From contig ML210271.1 of NCBI GenBank assembly GCA_004369085.1, forward strand, positions 47,106 to 89,244: a stretch of 42,139 bases of DNA, written 5' to 3'. The notes under the pieces were generated by a model that worked only from the letters and a program-made list of their open reading frames with translations, was not told where the DNA came from and did not search any database. Made by a program: the position numbers and the translations under genes. Positions within the stretch are counted from its first letter, which is position 1. Each line of letters opens with the position of its first letter. This document shows, in pieces, positions 7,421 to 34,507 of this stretch. This DNA is from Coprinopsis marcescibilis. Lineage: Eukaryota > Basidiomycota > Agaricomycetes > Agaricales > Psathyrellaceae.

Positions 7421-10400
7421 ATGTATACAGCGCACGTCCCCAGCTCGGCGGCTTACAGCCGCATGCCACCCAGCGCAGTCCCGGCAGGCTCGAGCCACCC
7501 GCACGGCCTGCATACGACTGGCACCACATCCAAACGCCACCCACTCGGTAACGCCGTCAGCCACCACGCCAACGCCAACGGGCTCGTACATCACCACCAA
7601 CAGCAGCAGCAGCAGCAGCAGCAGCATCATCATTATCAGATGCCCATTCCCATCCCTGGGAAGGGCTCAGTGCCGCCCGTCGTAAAGGGTATGGATCCAG
7701 GAGCAGGGGCCCAGCAGAAAGCGTCGAGCTCGCCGCCCCTCCCTCGACAGAATACAAAAACGAGGCCGCCGTCCCCGCCTAAAGTCATCAGCGACAAGAG
7801 CGGGAGGATGCACTTCAACCGTGTAGGCTTCCTTGGAGAGGTGCGTCTTTGTCATCCTACTCCTTTTTCACTACCAACGTCGGTACTCGCAGGGAGGCTT
7901 CGCGCGTGTCTACGAAGTGCAAGACCAGAAAGGCAGCCACCTGGCTTGCAAGGTAGTTACAAAGTCTGCTCTCAAAACTAAGAAGGCTAAAACCAAAGTA
8001 CGTGGTTCCTATTCAATTCGAGCGCATATACTCAGCTTTTTTTGCTTAGCTCTATGCAGAAATCAAAATCCATCGTAGTCTGGACCACCCCAACATTGTG
8101 ACGTTCCTGGAGTGCTTTGAAGACGAGGAGAATGTGTATATGACGCTCGAGCTCTGCCCAAGCGGGTCGCTCATGGACATGCTCCGGCGTCGTCGACGTT
8201 TCACCGAACCAGAGACACGGTTCTTCATGGTACAGCTCATCGGGGCGTGCCACTACATGCACGCGCACCAGGTCATCCACCGCGACCTCAAGCTCGGCAA
8301 TCTCTTCCTCGACGCGAACATGAACGTCAAGGTTGGCGATTTCGGACTGGCGGCGCTCATCGAGAACCCCGGTGAGCGCAAGAAGACGATCTGCGGGACA
8401 CCGAACTATATTGCGCCCGAGGTTCTGTTTGATACTGCGAATGGACACAGCTTCGAGGTGGATATTTGGTCGATTGGGGTTATTCTCTACACGCTTGTTG
8501 TTGGCCGACCGCCGTTCCAGACTAAGGAGGTCAAGGATATCTATCAGTGCGTTTTTATTTGTTTTTGGGTGGATGTATGCGCGGAAATTGACGTATATAT
8601 GGTGGTTTTAGACGGATCCGGGATAACAAGTATGAGTTTCCGGCGGATAGGCGTGTCTCGTCTGCTTGTCAGCTGCTAGTGCAAGCGGTGCTCACTCCGA
8701 ACCCAGCCGAACGGCCTACGCTGCACGAGATTGTCGATCATACGTTCTTCACCCAAGGGCCTGTCCCGTCCTATATCCCGACTTCGGCGCATGATGGTGT
8801 ACCGGATTTCAAGCAGATATCGCGTAGGGAGAGTGATTCGAATCTGAAGCGGTTGCGCCGTTATGCGCTGTTGGATACGGACTTTACGCCCCCGACCAGT
8901 CAGACGACGAGCGGTGGGGGATCGGGTAGTGGGAAAGGGGCAAACACGACGAATGTGGCGACGAGCATTGCACAGCAGGAGAAGGAGTTCCAGAAGGCTG
9001 TTTTACCTGGCAGTCCGATTAGTGCGTTGTTGAGCAGTGCGAGGCAGCCGTTGATGGTTGGGCCTAATAATGGTGGTGGTGGTGGAGCGGGAGCGCAGAG
9101 TCCGCTGTATCGAAAGTTGGCGGCTGTGAAGGAGAGTCAGCTTGGGAGGAGGAGTGTGACGCGGAATGCGTATGGGGTTATTGAGGAGGAGCAGAGGGGT
9201 GGTGGAACCAAGGGAAAGAAGAGGTATGTGGGTGAGACGGAGGAGGAAGAGGAGGAGATGAGGGTGAGGAAGAAGGAGTTGGAGGCCCAAAAAGCGAGGA
9301 TCGTTGCGCAGATGGCGCCTGTCAAGGAGGAAGGCGAGGATGGTGCTGAGAATGAGGAAGATGATGAGGTTGAGGAGCGATTGAGGGAGAGGGAGAGGCA
9401 GCAGCAGAGGGGTCAGGCGAAGAGGTACAAGGAGGAGGAGAGGGAGAATGTCCCGCCTGTGCGTGCTGCGAATCTACCACAGCCGACCAAGGCCAAGGTG
9501 GTTGTTGAGAGACAGCCGTTTACTAGTGAGTCTTTGGTTTTATTGCGTTTTGGATAGATCTGATTGTTAGTAGATGTTGCGCCGTCCACGATCCCAGCGT
9601 CGTCGTCCATGCCCTCTGCGCCATCCACCACTGCGTTGGCAGCGGCGACACCTAAGTTGAACGGGTTCGACGCGGCGGCGCATACGCTCACGCTAGCGTT
9701 TGATGCCAAAGCTGCTGGACGGGTGTTTTCGAATCCGGAAGGGGATGTGTTGGAGGAAGAGAGGGTGTTTATTGTGAGCTGGGTTGACTATTGCAACAAG
9801 TACGGGATGGGGTATGCGTTGACGGATGGGAGTGTTGGCGTCCATTTCAATGATAGTACTAGTTTGGTGCTGAGTGCTGATAAAGTGTGAGTTTCCGTTT
9901 TTCCAGTCGTTTGTCTGGATGGTCGCTGATGAGGGTTTTGGGCTTAGACACTTTGATTATATCACCTCGAGGAGGGGAGGGACTGTCTATGTGCGGAAAT
10001 CGTACAAGGTGGACGAGTACCCCGATGAGCTGAAGAGCAAGGTGTATTTGTTGAAGCATTTCGAAAAGTATATTATGGAGAGGTTGTATGGGGAGTATGA
10101 GTATACGTATGAGGATGTGGGGAGGACGAAGGGGATGGAGTGGGTGCAAAAGTATCTGAGGATGAAGCATGTTATCGTGTTCAAGTTGAGCCATGACGTT
10201 TTGCAGGTGAGTTTTCATCTTTTTCGTCGTCCTTTCAAAAATACTAACACCGCCCTTCAGTTCAACTTTTACGACCACAGCAAGCTGATCCTATCCTCGC
10301 ACGGGCTGCTCATCACGCATATTGACAAAAACTACAAGATGACGCGGTGGACGTTGAGGGATGTCATGGAGTTTGCGGTGTGTGGTCCGCCGGCTGGTGT

Positions 10401-10674
10401 GGATGGGGAAGTGGTGAAGTTTAATCAAAAGTTGGTGGACAAGCTGAAGTATTGTAAGGAGGTGCTTGTGAGTATTAGGAGTGCGAGTGGGGCCGAGGGG
10501 GTGGGTGAAAAGGTTGAAAAGGGGCTGGGTGCGAGTGAGAGGGAGAGGGAGAGGTATGTGCAGGAGGAGAGGGAAAAGGAGAGGGAGAGGGAGCAGGTAC
10601 CTGTGCCTAGTCGGGTTGCGCCGGGGTATACGGGGTCGTTGAATAAGAGGACGTCGAGGATGGCATTGAGGTAG
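7421..10674 (+). CDS. Polo-like kinase (Cdc5/Plo1/PLK1 type)
   Basis: Seven exons (7421-7840, 7893-7997, 8050-8546, 8612-9525, 9571-9886, 9948-10206, 10261-10674) give 974 residues. The kinase domain has Gly loop [12 protein letters not shown] (138-149), Lys160, Glu179, HRDLKLGN (Asp254), DFG (Asp272) and activation-loop [14 protein letters not shown], with Thr288 equivalent to human PLK1 Thr210. A charged linker of about 300 residues leads to two polo boxes. PB1 has [17 protein letters not shown] (Trp716) and [11 protein letters not shown]2 has FYDHSKLIL, whose His843 and Lys845 match the phosphopeptide-binding His-Lys pincer. PLKs drive mitotic entry, spindle pole maturation and cytokinesis. 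A His/Gln-rich N-terminus and an acidic/basic repeat C-tail make it longer than Cdc5 (about 705 aa). The fifth exon may start at 9571 or 9574 (tandem TAG). Confidence 0.95.
7601..7624 (+). repeat. CAG trinucleotide run encoding poly-Gln
   Basis: An uninterrupted CAG tract within PLK exon 1 codes about eight to nine Gln flanked by His runs. Such tracts are length-variable; here it lies in the disordered N-terminus outside the kinase domain. Confidence 0.8.
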
Positions 10675-13611: not shown

Positions 13612-14292
13612 TACGGTGTACGAGAGGTATATGGTTGAATTTTCACGCGCGATAGCCCTTCCACCTTGATTATCAGTATTTGATGGTGGACTTTATCTAA
13701 CTCCGGCGATGAAATTCTGGTTGAGAGATGTAGGTTTGAGGTGATGAAGAGTCCCTAGTACATANNNNNNNNNNNNNNNNNNNNNNNNNNNNNNNNNNNN
13801 NNNNNNNNNNNNNNNNNNNNNNNNNNNNNNNNNNNNNNNNNNNNNNNNNNNNNNNNNNNNNNNNNNNNNNNNNNNNNNNNNNNNNNNNNNNNNNNNNNNN
13901 NNNNNNNNNNNNNNNNNNNNNNNNNNNNNNNNNNNNNNNNNNNNNNNNNNNNNNNNNNNNNNNNNNNNNNNNNNNNNNNNNNNNNNNNNNNNNNNNNNNN
14001 NNNNNNNNNNNNNNNNNNNNNNNNNNNNNNNNNNNNNNNNNNNNNNNNNNNNNNAATAGATCCACTTTTATGTTTTATATCTGCACTATATGACTATGAG
14101 TGCATGTTTCAGGCCTCATTATACCTTACACTAGCCTGGGGCTTAAGAAATAATCTTCGATATCTCAAGTTAGTAATGTCGGTGCAGAATTTTATCGCCG
14201 GAGTTAGATACAAGTCCACCATCAAATACCGATAATCAAGGTCGAAGGGCTGTCGCGCGTGAAAATTCAACCATATACTTCTCGTACACCGT
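13612..14292. repeat. Inverted repeat flanking an assembly gap
   Basis: Arms of about 108 bp (13612-13719 and the complement of 14185-14292) match closely, with a few substitutions and one indel. Shared sequence includes TTGAATTTTCACGCGCGA and ATCTAACTCCGGCGAT. Between them are unique sequence and 290 Ns (13765-14054). This could be a foldback/MITE-type element; no target duplication was identified. Confidence 0.75.
13765..14054. other. Assembly gap (290 N)
   Basis: Run of undetermined bases, situated inside the loop of an inverted repeat. Confidence 1.
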
Positions 14293-17764: not shown

Positions 17765-18832
17765 ATTGCCAACCTATCTAACCCCGCGGTCTCTCCCATC
17801 CTAAATCTCTCCTTTACAAGCGCCCTTTATCCATCCGCAATGGCCACATGATCCTTTGCTATCCTTTCGGACCCGGGCTTAGTCTCGCATTAGGTAGCCA
17901 ACGCCGACCCTGAACAAACGGATGTACCGCCAATGGCTGGAATGTGGGGTTAGACGCAGTCTTTCGTGGCTTGCCATGGTAAAGTCCTAATCTTATTTCC
18001 GTGTCTTACCCGAGATTCCACGAACAGGCAGATTTCGAGCAGTAATTTCAAGTTCAGCCTTGCAGCGAATTGTGCGGGGCCGGATGTTGTTGTTAGTTAT
18101 GGCCCAATGGAGCTCCATGGCCGGATCCAAATACATCTTCGAGCATTCTAGATCTGTTGGCGAGCATATGAATCTCATCTCATAGCGTGGCTTTTGTCAG
18201 TTTACGCCTGTGGCTAATGTCACGAAGATTTGTTCGCTGGTGGGGTATTCGTAACGGAACAGACCCTCGGTGGTGATCCCCGCTTCGTGCGGAAGCCGCT
18301 TTCGTTAAGAGCGAATGAAGATGCTTTCTGCTCCACTTGATTTGAGGATTCTGGGGTCGTAAGGAACGGAGCTTAAGTGTTTATGCCAAAGAAGCGGTGT
18401 TCTGAACGACGAGACGTCAGAGACGCGGAATCCGCTCAGGGGATTTCTCGCCGTTTAATCGCGGTAATCCGGGGAAAGGATTTCCAAATACCGCGAGTTG
18501 CTTAAATTGGCCTCATCCAACATGATGTGTGTGTGCTGAGAAAAAGAATACAGTGTTCAATGGAGTCAATTCTTTACGTCAAGGCAACCAGAAGTCTAGT
18601 TGAACGGTCATAAAAGTACATATTTAGTCACTACATGTTTGCGAGTATGTAGCACTGCTGGAGATGCCGACTATTGTGAGAGAGATACATATGGCGCCGT
18701 TAAGGCTTTAAATTCTCGCGAGAAATCAATGCAGAGAGTAGTCGAATTAACCAATTATGAAGAAAGTAGGGGATGCATGCGGGGCAGGCCAATCAACGGT
18801 TGGGGAATTTTAAAGTCTTTTGTAGCGTAAAC
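17765..18832. other. Intergenic, no gene seen
   Basis: No frame with coding signature and no recognised repeat. It is downstream of the peptide-precursor gene on the minus strand. Confidence 0.4.
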
Positions 18833-19347
18833 CTATCTCCTCTCCTGAGCCTCGCCGTCGTCGCCCCTCCAGCCTGGTCGTGTAGGTCCTTCGTCGCGCT
18901 TTACTGCTGATCCATCATGACCATCACCCTTCCACGGTGGACTATCGAACTGCCTCCGTTCCACAGACTATGTGATTTATTCTCAGTAATTGGCACAATG
19001 GTGACGAAAGGTGAACTTACGCGAGCCTCCAATTCTTCATCTCTCCATGCAGGGCTTTCAAACTGCCTTCGCTTAACCTGGGAAACAACCATGTAAGTCT
19101 CGGGATAATATGTAGCTTGCAAGGACAGTGGGCGCTTACAGCGGTCGCCTCTTCGTCTCTCCACGTTGGGCTTTCGAACTGTCTTCGTTCTGCATCACGG
19201 TTGAGCAGCGCATCGCCAGAATTGGAGATCTAGCAGAACTGGTCAGCCACAGCTGTGAAACTGAGAAGGGAAACATGAACAGACAGGTGCGGAAATGGTA
19301 AGAGAGAGGGTGCAAGCGAGGAACAGGAGTATACCGGTGGAGCGCAT
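18833..19347 (-). CDS. Candidate kexin-processed repeat peptide precursor, 114 aa
   Basis: Four exons on the minus strand (19347-19285, 19229-19140, 19077-19021, 18967-18833), all joined in phase 0. Exon 1 is a signal peptide (MRSTGILLFL..LTISAP, 21 aa). Exons 2, 3 and 4 each carry one unit: ERRQFESPTWRDEE (residues 35-48), KRRQFESPAWRDEE (53-66) and ERRQFDSPPWKGDG (73-86). A fourth, diverged unit follows (KRDEGPTRPGWRGDD, 93-107), and the protein ends QERR. Dibasic Arg-Arg/Lys-Arg sites recur every 18-20 residues, so kexin would release peptides beginning Gln-Phe-Glu/Asp-Ser-Pro-x-Trp. Codons for the shared core differ mostly at silent positions, which supports selection on the peptide. A TATA box lies 100 bp upstream. 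The first intron has a weak donor (GTCTGT) but a good CTGAC branch site and CTAG acceptor. Pheromone-like, RiPP-like or effector roles are possible; no tailoring enzyme is adjacent. Confidence 0.75.
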
Positions 19348-19446
19348 TGTTCAAGCAGAATAATGAAGGGAGAGCGAGGAGATGATGTGGGGCAATGGAC
19401 TACCGAGAGGGCGAGGTGATGATTGAACACCGGAAGCTCCATGCCC

Positions 19447-19454
19447 ATTATATA
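19447..19454 (-). promoter_or_regulatory. TATA box of the peptide-precursor gene
   Basis: Minus-strand TATATAAT lies 100 bp before the ATG at 19347 and is followed by a CT-rich leader. It marks the transcript start downstream of competing in-frame ATGs. Confidence 0.6.
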
Positions 19455-19504
19455 GTGCCACGCAGGTGGCACATGCTCCGATAGATGGGATATCCAGTGC
19501 CTGA

Positions 19505-19735
19505 GAGAAGAAACTTATCAAGCGAGAAAAGCTGAGAAAGGTTGAGCATCTCGACGGCGTTTGTAACAGACCGCATGATGATGCGCTGTTACGGGATCTT
19601 AACTCCATCAAGAACCGGGGTTTCTTTGCAGTCGTACCGCTGCAAGATGTTGCGCAGATCTCATCTGGACTACGAAGACTTATTAGGAAGCTGCACCCGA
19701 GCAATGGGAAACTACGTGAGTATAAATGTGAATGA
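19505..19735 (+). pseudogene. Coding relic, unknown family
   Basis: A 76-codon open stretch without ATG reads like ordinary protein: KLIKREKLRKVEHLDG, then LLRDLNSIKNRGFFAVVPLQ and ISSGLRRLIRKLHPS, ending at TGA. No start, no convincing flanking exons and no recognised domain. It is upstream of the peptide gene on the other strand. Most likely a fragment of a decayed gene or element. Confidence 0.35.
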
Positions 19736-20185
19736 GTGTCAGACTGCATAAGGGTGTTTGGCGCTTCTCGGACTAACGTGTAATGATTGGCACATTTATC
19801 CATATCCTTTCCCTTGATTGTTGCGTTGGGCGACGTCATAGAATCCCGTTGCGTACCATCCAGAATCAGCCTCAGACGACAGCGTTTAATATAGCTGGAT
19901 TCCAGGGGGGCAATAAGAGCATGGGACTGTTTGATCCAACTATGTACATAGGTCCTGTCCCCACCTGATTTTTTTCCGAGGTTCTTTCACCTCGTGGTCG
20001 TGAGTATCACGAGTCCCGATTGACGTAGAGATTGACATGTAGTGCTGCTATACCTGTATACCGAAGGGTCGGAGTTCGGAGGCATGAGTTAGTAAGTCTT
20101 TACATGTGGGTTCCAGACATGATCTCTGTCAGTCGGCAGATATTTATAACACCGTATCATTATTAACGCTTCCTTGCTTCAGCAG

Positions 20186-33719: not shown

Positions 33720-34507
33720 GGTGGGTTAGCTGTAATGGATGATGGTTAAACGAATGTGAAAGAGGGTGGTATGCACGAAGGGACAGTATTGAAGAGAAAG
33801 ACGGTGGTTAGTCACTGCGGCGTGAAGGAAAGACTGTGAGAAAGGGACGTGTTGTCCCAGCGTTGACAACCCCGCTGTTCTTCGAGGAATCAAAGGGCGA
33901 GTTCTATCTTTGGCTTTGATAGTTTCTCATCTGAAAATAGTTAGGTCAAGTGATCTAAGTCGATCTGTCACAGCGAACGGCGTACCGCAGAAGACCTAAT
34001 GTGGAATAATGAACATACGTTTCTAGGCTGAAGTCACTCCTTCCAGGTCCTGCAAAGGCTGCAAATCATTAGGTTTTACTGTTGGGACACAGGTCCCATG
34101 TTCACAAGATATGTTATGTTGGTGGACATGATAAGACGTACCGGAGGTAGGGAAGGAGAGGATTATTATCATAGGAAGCCTTATCGGATTCAGGTCCCAC
34201 TTCTTTCATCACGAAAACGACGCAAAAGTCCCGACCTGATCAACAGGCCAAGAATGGGGTTATTGCTTGATTGGCGCTTAGTGGGGTAGAAACAACCCCC
34301 CCTGTACGCCTTACCCGAAGGGACCGCGGGCCCTTTACCAATTGCCGATGGTTTGGCTTCTGGATACGGAGACATTGGCGAGAAAATAGGGGCGAGGCAA
34401 AAAATGAAATCAAGAATTCCCAAGTTTAATATTCCCAAGTTTAATTTCCAATGGTTTAATCGGACTTCTTCGCGTATCATGATACGACTATAATCATTCT
34501 TCACCGA
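33720..34507. other. Intergenic, no gene seen
   Basis: Promoter of the membrane protein and 3' flank of the prenyltransferase gene. The repeated CCCAAGTTTAAT near 34418-34443 is the only local repeat noted. Confidence 0.4.

Follow-up and report, generated by a model that had tools for sequence, protein, structure and literature searches.

The analysed window, a stretch of 42,139 nucleotides from Coprinopsis marcescibilis, carries on its minus strand a gene with four exons of 63, 90, 57, and 135 nt, which are joined into a product of 114 amino acids. The spliced product was 100% identical to FA15DRAFT_672666 (P0001), a deposited hypothetical protein of this species on a contig of 89244 bases, which ends where the window ends, and the deposited annotation therefore has the same gene model. 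As shown in Table 1, the exons are separated by three introns, all with GT-AG borders and all in phase 0. These results confirmed an earlier note on this DNA, which had described a signal-peptide exon followed by phase-0 exons carrying three repeat units, one per exon, and a diverged fourth unit, and which had given no strand.

Table 1. Features of the FA15DRAFT_672666 gene (positions in the window) and two further precursor frames of the same genome (contig and positions).
Feature	Position	Strand	Basis
Candidate TATATAAT box-like sequence, 100 nt upstream of the start codon	19447..19454	-	sequence reading
Exon 1: start codon and predicted signal peptide MRSTGILLFLACTLSLTISAP	19285..19347	-	spliced translation; matches P0001; hydropathy
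Intron 1, 55 nt, phase 0	19230..19284	-	splicing of sequence
Exon 2: ISNSGDALLNRDAERR, then unit 1 QFESPTW-R and acidic spacer	19140..19229	-	spliced translation
Intron 2, 62 nt, phase 0	19078..19139	-	splicing of sequence
Exon 3, 57 nt, in-frame cassette: VKRR-QFESPAW-R and acidic spacer	19021..19077	-	spliced translation
Intron 3, 53 nt, phase 0	18968..19020	-	splicing of sequence
Exon 4: SVERR-QFDSPPW-K, KR-DEGPTRPGW-R (diverged unit 4), terminal ERR, stop	18833..18967	-	spliced translation
QFRSKAW precursor (classical KEP), intronless open frame	C84:52577-53065	minus	genome search with P0003
KEP-like frame: five QGGRPNQGRPW and first unit IFKSSSW	C76:22299-22835	plus	genome search with C84

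By a crude hydropathy measure, the protein starts with a predicted signal peptide: a peak of 2.6 was reached at residues 6-16, and the values were at or below -0.98 after residue 25. The order of its parts is a signal-like segment ending in SAP, followed by ISNSGDALLNRDAE-RR-QFESPTW-R-DEEATAV-KRR-QFESPAW-R-DEELEARSVE-RR-QFDSPPW-K-GDGHDGSAV-KR-DEGPTRPGW-R-GDDGEAQERR. Three RRQFxSPxW units and a fourth one after KR are thus separated by dibasic sites. RRQ was found at residues 36, 54, and 74 and KRD at residue 93, giving spacings of 18, 20, and 19 residues, in agreement with the interval of 18-20 residues reported before. Together with the hydropathy peak, these RR- and KR-separated repeats support the prediction of a secreted kexin-type precursor. 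A Pfam scan of FA15DRAFT_672666 gave no match above the cut-off, and the best chain in a PDB search reached only an E-value of 0.93.

The units of exons 2-4, ERRQFESPTW, KRRQFESPAW, and ERRQFDSPPW, follow the pattern [EK]RRQF(E/D)SPxW, with one unit in each exon. Unit 4 ends in PGW, and all four Trp residues of the protein lie within PxW[KR]. When the mature part was shuffled 100,000 times, four PxW[KR] were never reached (0/100,000), and one or more QFxSxxW appeared in 28 shuffles, compared with the three observed. The RRQFxSPxW core was then compared between exons over nine codons (about 5.3 synonymous and 21.7 non-synonymous sites). The synonymous and non-synonymous changes numbered 4 and 1 for exons 2 and 3, 3 and 2 for exons 2 and 4, and 5 and 2 for exons 3 and 4, with Fisher p values of 0.0014, 0.03, and 0.0003, respectively, from small counts and non-independent exon pairs. 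Synonymous sites between the units were near saturation. Outside the core, exons 2 and 4 differed by 12 non-synonymous changes over 17 codons, compared with 2 in the nine core codons. W[RK] was kept in 4/4 units, and the residues beyond it diverged. These comparisons indicate that the RRQFxSPxW core is under purifying selection, and the earlier reading of mostly silent core differences and a selected peptide held.

FA15DRAFT_672666 is probably a KEX2-processed repeat protein (KEP) that is secreted and cut in the Golgi into short Trp-ending peptides, three of its exons each supplying one QF(E/D)SPxW. The signal peptide would be removed near SAP. A Kex2 cut after RR would then expose Gln directly; since RR stands immediately before Gln, kexin alone would suffice and Ste13 trimming would not be needed, unlike in the likely relatives. 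The C-terminus would be made at the single Arg or Lys after Trp, by Kex2 or another basic-residue protease, followed by Kex1-type trimming, which would yield QFESPTW, QFESPAW, QFDSPPW, and DEGPTRPGW. Finally, the N-terminal Gln may cyclise to pyroglutamate. This last proposal had been made before. The Coprinopsis cinerea KEP 490115, upon expression in Pichia, gave QMRPPSW, QYKAPSW, and pyro-QYKAPSW according to PMC9769878.

The C-terminus is the uncertain step of this scheme. If it fails, peptides of 15 to 18 residues running through the acidic spacers would result. Only RR and KR are strong sites for Kex2, and a single Arg or Lys between Trp and Asp or Gly is a poor one; processing may therefore not release the heptapeptide. 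It is conceivable, though we consider it rather unlikely, that the precursor is processed by kexin into such 15- to 18-residue peptides between the dibasic sites (e.g. QFESPTWRDEEATAV), with W[RK] left uncut; the likeness of units 1 and 2 through RDEE would fit this outcome. The divergence beyond W[RK], with its excess of non-synonymous changes over the core, argues against it, as do the Trp that precedes a dibasic site in nine compared precursors and the published cores of KEP 490115, which end at Trp (PMC9769878). In Pichia, several products of three KEPs were apparently cut after a single Arg (Vogt et al., PMC9769878). Because W[RK] is kept in the four units, the residues behind it diverge, and the published 490115 cores end at Trp, we prefer Trp as the probable C-terminal end of the peptides. 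It is improbable that the protein works uncleaved after secretion, for instance as a small protein of the wall or surface whose dibasic repeats serve as linkers or arose by chance. The chain is short, charged residues are abundant in it, and its cleavage is a prediction, but the core including RR was kept against synonymous change, and processed KEPs have been published (PMC9769878).

Searches for homologues gave a QFRSKAW precursor in the same genome and, by profile, Trp-ending KEPs. The whole protein returned only itself in a search of 5.8 billion sequences at E-values up to 10, in which nine word-sharing candidates were scored. A chimera of published cores and FA15DRAFT_672666, searched against 5.8 billion sequences, also gave only this protein among 292 scored candidates. 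Lack of homologues is common among KEPs (2560 of 7878 in PMC7329392). A profile composed of published cores, self-written spacers of varied length, and the FA15DRAFT_672666 cores recovered 8 proteins among 7987 scored candidates, including P0001, whose place is circular. The E-values ranged from 5e-8 (P0002) to 0.15 (P0007) and 0.57 (P0008), the last two being non-significant. KEP 490115 itself was not recognised among the profile-found proteins, and the W-RR and XA/XP traits of these relatives were partly written into the query.

Among the recovered proteins, P0002 (Termitomyces), P0003 (Panaeolus papilionaceus, with two QYHKPDW), P0005 (Lyophyllum shimeji), and P0006 (Amanita thiersii) are Trp-ending KEPs of Agaricomycetes. 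Like FA15DRAFT_672666, they begin with a hydrophobic stretch and contain several units whose final Trp precedes a basic residue. Unlike it, they have a double basic site after Trp, and X[AP] follows 8/10, 3/3, 3/5, and 7/7 of their dibasic sites, respectively, compared with 0/5 in FA15DRAFT_672666. In all nine other precursors, wherever a basic residue follows Trp, a second one comes next (W[KR]R), and X[AP] comes after most dibasic sites; in FA15DRAFT_672666, W[KR]R occurs in 0/4 units and a single basic residue after Trp in 4/4. This contrast is partly a matter of ascertainment, 7/9 of the precursors coming from the profile that holds such spacers.

Searches of the C. marcescibilis genome itself gave two further precursors. 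The FA15DRAFT_672666 protein (E up to 10) returned its own exons and an unrelated-looking place on C18 (E 1.25), and neither C84 nor C76. A QYKAPSW-type probe and P0006 found nothing in this genome; these misses say little, because P0003 then found C84 (52832-53044, E 4e-7) and C84 found C76 (E 2e-9). Genome searches with C76 and C84 retrieved one another, and none of the queries P0003, C84, and C76 returned the FA15DRAFT_672666 gene. The C84 frame contains eight QFRSKAW copies with RR sites and EP/AP dipeptides, and all core differences between the copies are synonymous. For C76, one intron of 144 nt was placed by eye just after the signal peptide, which puts it close to intron 1 of FA15DRAFT_672666 in position and phase; the frame is also open without it. 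With a DNA pattern of the core (up to 2 mismatches), 7 places were found in the genome, 2 of them in this gene, compared with 2 for the reversed control; for the other five, the reading covered L006, which holds a single copy, and a partial translation of L001. The protein pattern [RS]Q[FY]xxPxW gave 17 places, 3 of them in the FA15DRAFT_672666 gene, compared with 9 for the reversed control, and the other 14 had no second copy within about 140 residues around them.

C84 and FA15DRAFT_672666 share the QF-x-S-x-x-W core (5/7 residues identical between QFRSKAW and QFESPAW), W-R, and a hydrophobic start, which ends in AAP in C84. They differ in that C84 is intronless, has eight identical cores and W-RR, and shows XP/XA after 8/9 dibasic sites. 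Moreover, its core is basic where those of FA15DRAFT_672666 are acidic. With Trp kept in place, 0.3% of shuffles scored as high as QFRSKAW against the FA15DRAFT_672666 cores, and a single BLASTP comparison of the two proteins gave an E-value of 1e-4. With its acidic cores, FA15DRAFT_672666 may be the counterpart of this basic QFRSKAW array.

When 13 cores were compared in this way, 6 fell below 5% of shuffles and 7 did not. The six were QFRSKAW, QYKAPSW (0.6%), VINSPSW (1.3%), QYHKPDW (2.7%), GYRAPSW (3.3%), and QMRPPSW (4.7%); the seven included GPPAPSW of KEP 447393 (54%) and the C76 core (47%). In alignments of the mature region, the score was reached by 2 of 1000 shuffles for C84, 1 for P0005, 2 for P0002, 11 for P0008, 20 for P0003, 21 for P0007, 94 for P0006, 235 for P0004, and 236 for C76. 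With basic pairs kept together, these counts became 16, 2, 25, 24, 58, 88, 276, 534, and 372 per 1000, respectively. We regard kinship of FA15DRAFT_672666 to other KEPs as likely, though weak and not proven; its probable place is among the Trp-ending KEPs of Agaricomycetes. Its KEP-like build is independent of the question of kinship.

The nearest described system is KEP 490115, which also comes from an Agaricomycete and, as described in PMC9769878, also has Gln-starting, Trp-ending heptapeptides between kexin sites. The earlier statement that no family with this core had been described is not supported, in view of these heptapeptides and the QFRSKAW precursor. KEP 490115, known here by its published cores, has Ste13-type XA/XP dipeptides before the core, unlike FA15DRAFT_672666, which has none; many basidiomycete KEPs combine Ste13 motifs with a C-terminal Trp (PMC9769878). 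The alpha-pheromone precursors of ascomycetes likewise hold repeated short kexin-released peptides, which in Fusarium and others end in a well-conserved PCW (PMC6339444), but they carry a Ste13 signature that is absent from FA15DRAFT_672666. Mating in basidiomycetes involves prenylated a-type pheromones (PMC9769878). We suggest that FA15DRAFT_672666 could descend from a precursor of the W-(K/R)R-(XA/XP)n-Q type that lost its Ste13 spacers and underwent an old tandem duplication of an exon.

The layout with one unit per exon is peculiar to FA15DRAFT_672666 among these three precursors of the genome: C84 and apparently C76 keep their arrays in one exon, and the layout does not appear to be a family trait there. 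Exons 2 (90 nt) and 3 (57 nt) are multiples of three between phase-0 introns, and each could be skipped in frame; variation of copy number by splicing is thus possible as far as the gene sequence goes. The earlier note had ascribed the layout to duplication of an exon with its intron. The exon borders are consistent with this, but pairwise aligned introns scored no better than shuffles (p 0.85, 0.25, and 0.67), and neither a repeat search of 18300-19900 nor Tandem Repeats Finder listed a direct DNA repeat at the locus. A duplication, if any, would therefore be old. The near saturation of synonymous sites would explain both the absence of a DNA repeat and the loss of intron similarity, if such similarity ever existed. 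Duplication of exon plus intron is plausible from the exon borders, without support from intron similarity.

The units may instead have multiplied within one exon, with introns gained later between them and no exon-plus-intron duplication, a history to which we give the smaller credence. Introns 2 and 3, no more alike than shuffles, and the C84 and C76 arrays, each in a single open frame, fit such a gain. It is opposed by the shared phase of introns 2 and 3, each of which ends 2-3 codons before RR, and by the near-saturated synonymous sites, under which homologous introns would look unrelated. P0008, a metagenomic protein (JGI, contig of 16613 bases), also speaks against it, as judged from its protein sequence; its match to the profile was non-significant. 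This protein reads INSPSWKR-(EA)n-VPGIVPYV plus an F/Y/L-rich stretch, twice, followed by a third INSPSWKR. We infer that it is the unspliced translation of three tandem exon copies, in which the two linkers would be still-similar introns of some 65-75 nt. The DNA encoding P0008 was not found in viral and genome contigs. P0008 is only a hint that exon-plus-intron duplication recurs among KEPs.

The genome was also scanned for processing enzymes. The kexin P-domain gave 4 matches on C6 and C2, read as three loci, and C. cinerea has three kex2 genes (PMC9769878). DPPIV gave 3 matches, read as one Ste13-like gene on C197. There were 16 matches to Peptidase_M28, a family that also includes glutaminyl cyclases. 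At least 8 matches to UstYa (PF11807) were found in four pairs on C59, C72, and C280; these pairs could mark dikaritin-type clusters of C. marcescibilis.

Dikaritins (ustiloxin and others) had been named in the earlier note as a match for this precursor, and they do share a signal peptide and kexin-spaced repeats with it. That FA15DRAFT_672666 is a dikaritin-type RiPP precursor with cores cyclised by UstYa enzymes is nevertheless very improbable, even though the genome contains UstYa matches. None of the 8 listed UstYa (DUF3328) matches, counted as lower bounds, lies on the 89-kb contig that holds the gene (C126); no UstYa-type enzyme was present in the 10 ORFs scanned among the 71 window ORFs of at least 100 amino acids, and the cores contain no Tyr. 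These searches covered the sequence outside a masked, unreadable stretch within about 13.7-14.1 kb of the window. A UstYa neighbour is reported for only 6.1% of basidiomycete KEPs (PMC7329392).

Taken as a whole, FA15DRAFT_672666 is likely a genuine and functional Trp-ending mushroom KEP. What sets it apart as new is the absence of Ste13 spacers, the distribution of single units over separate exons, and the acidic form of a core whose basic form occurs in another precursor of the same genome. By analogy with the KEP class, its peptides would most likely serve as an extracellular signal or as an agent in biotic interactions. Little is understood of what KEPs do, common though they are in mushrooms; knockouts of six kep genes in C. 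cinerea are described without a phenotype (PMC9769878). The two QFxSxxW precursors, a basic one with Ste13-type spacers and an acidic one without, would offer a built-in comparison for receptor, target, and processing rules. More speculatively, exon-plus-intron duplication could have made in-frame cassettes of a splice-tunable precursor, exon skipping setting the ratio of QFESPTW, QFESPAW, and QFDSPPW; these acidic, Ste13-independent peptides and the basic QFRSKAW of the Ste13 route could then be matched pyroglutamyl heptapeptides on the QFxSxxW scaffold, possibly opposing or partner signals. We regard this combined proposal as a long shot.

No report of exon-by-exon KEP repeats was found in the open-licence literature, supplements aside, and FA15DRAFT_672666 may already be contained in the supplement of PMC7329392. 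Gene structure is barely treated in the main text of three KEP papers: the words "intron" and "exon" gave 0 and 0 hits in PMC7329392, 0 and 0 in PMC6339444, and 1 and 0 in PMC9769878. The exon-per-unit layout may explain why such precursors are missed, because unspliced translation breaks the repeat.

Elsewhere in the window, four of the ten scanned ORFs had a domain match (POLO box, Mur ligase middle domain, fungal protein kinase, chromate transporter), and the other six had none. A masked stretch within 13697-14065 gives unknown residues in the ORF listed there, and a gene at this place would be missed. A CAG microsatellite of 8.7 copies was found at 7601-7626, a GAGGGA repeat at 10533-10593 within the ORF that matched the POLO box, and 2.3 copies of a 15-base unit at 34416-34449.
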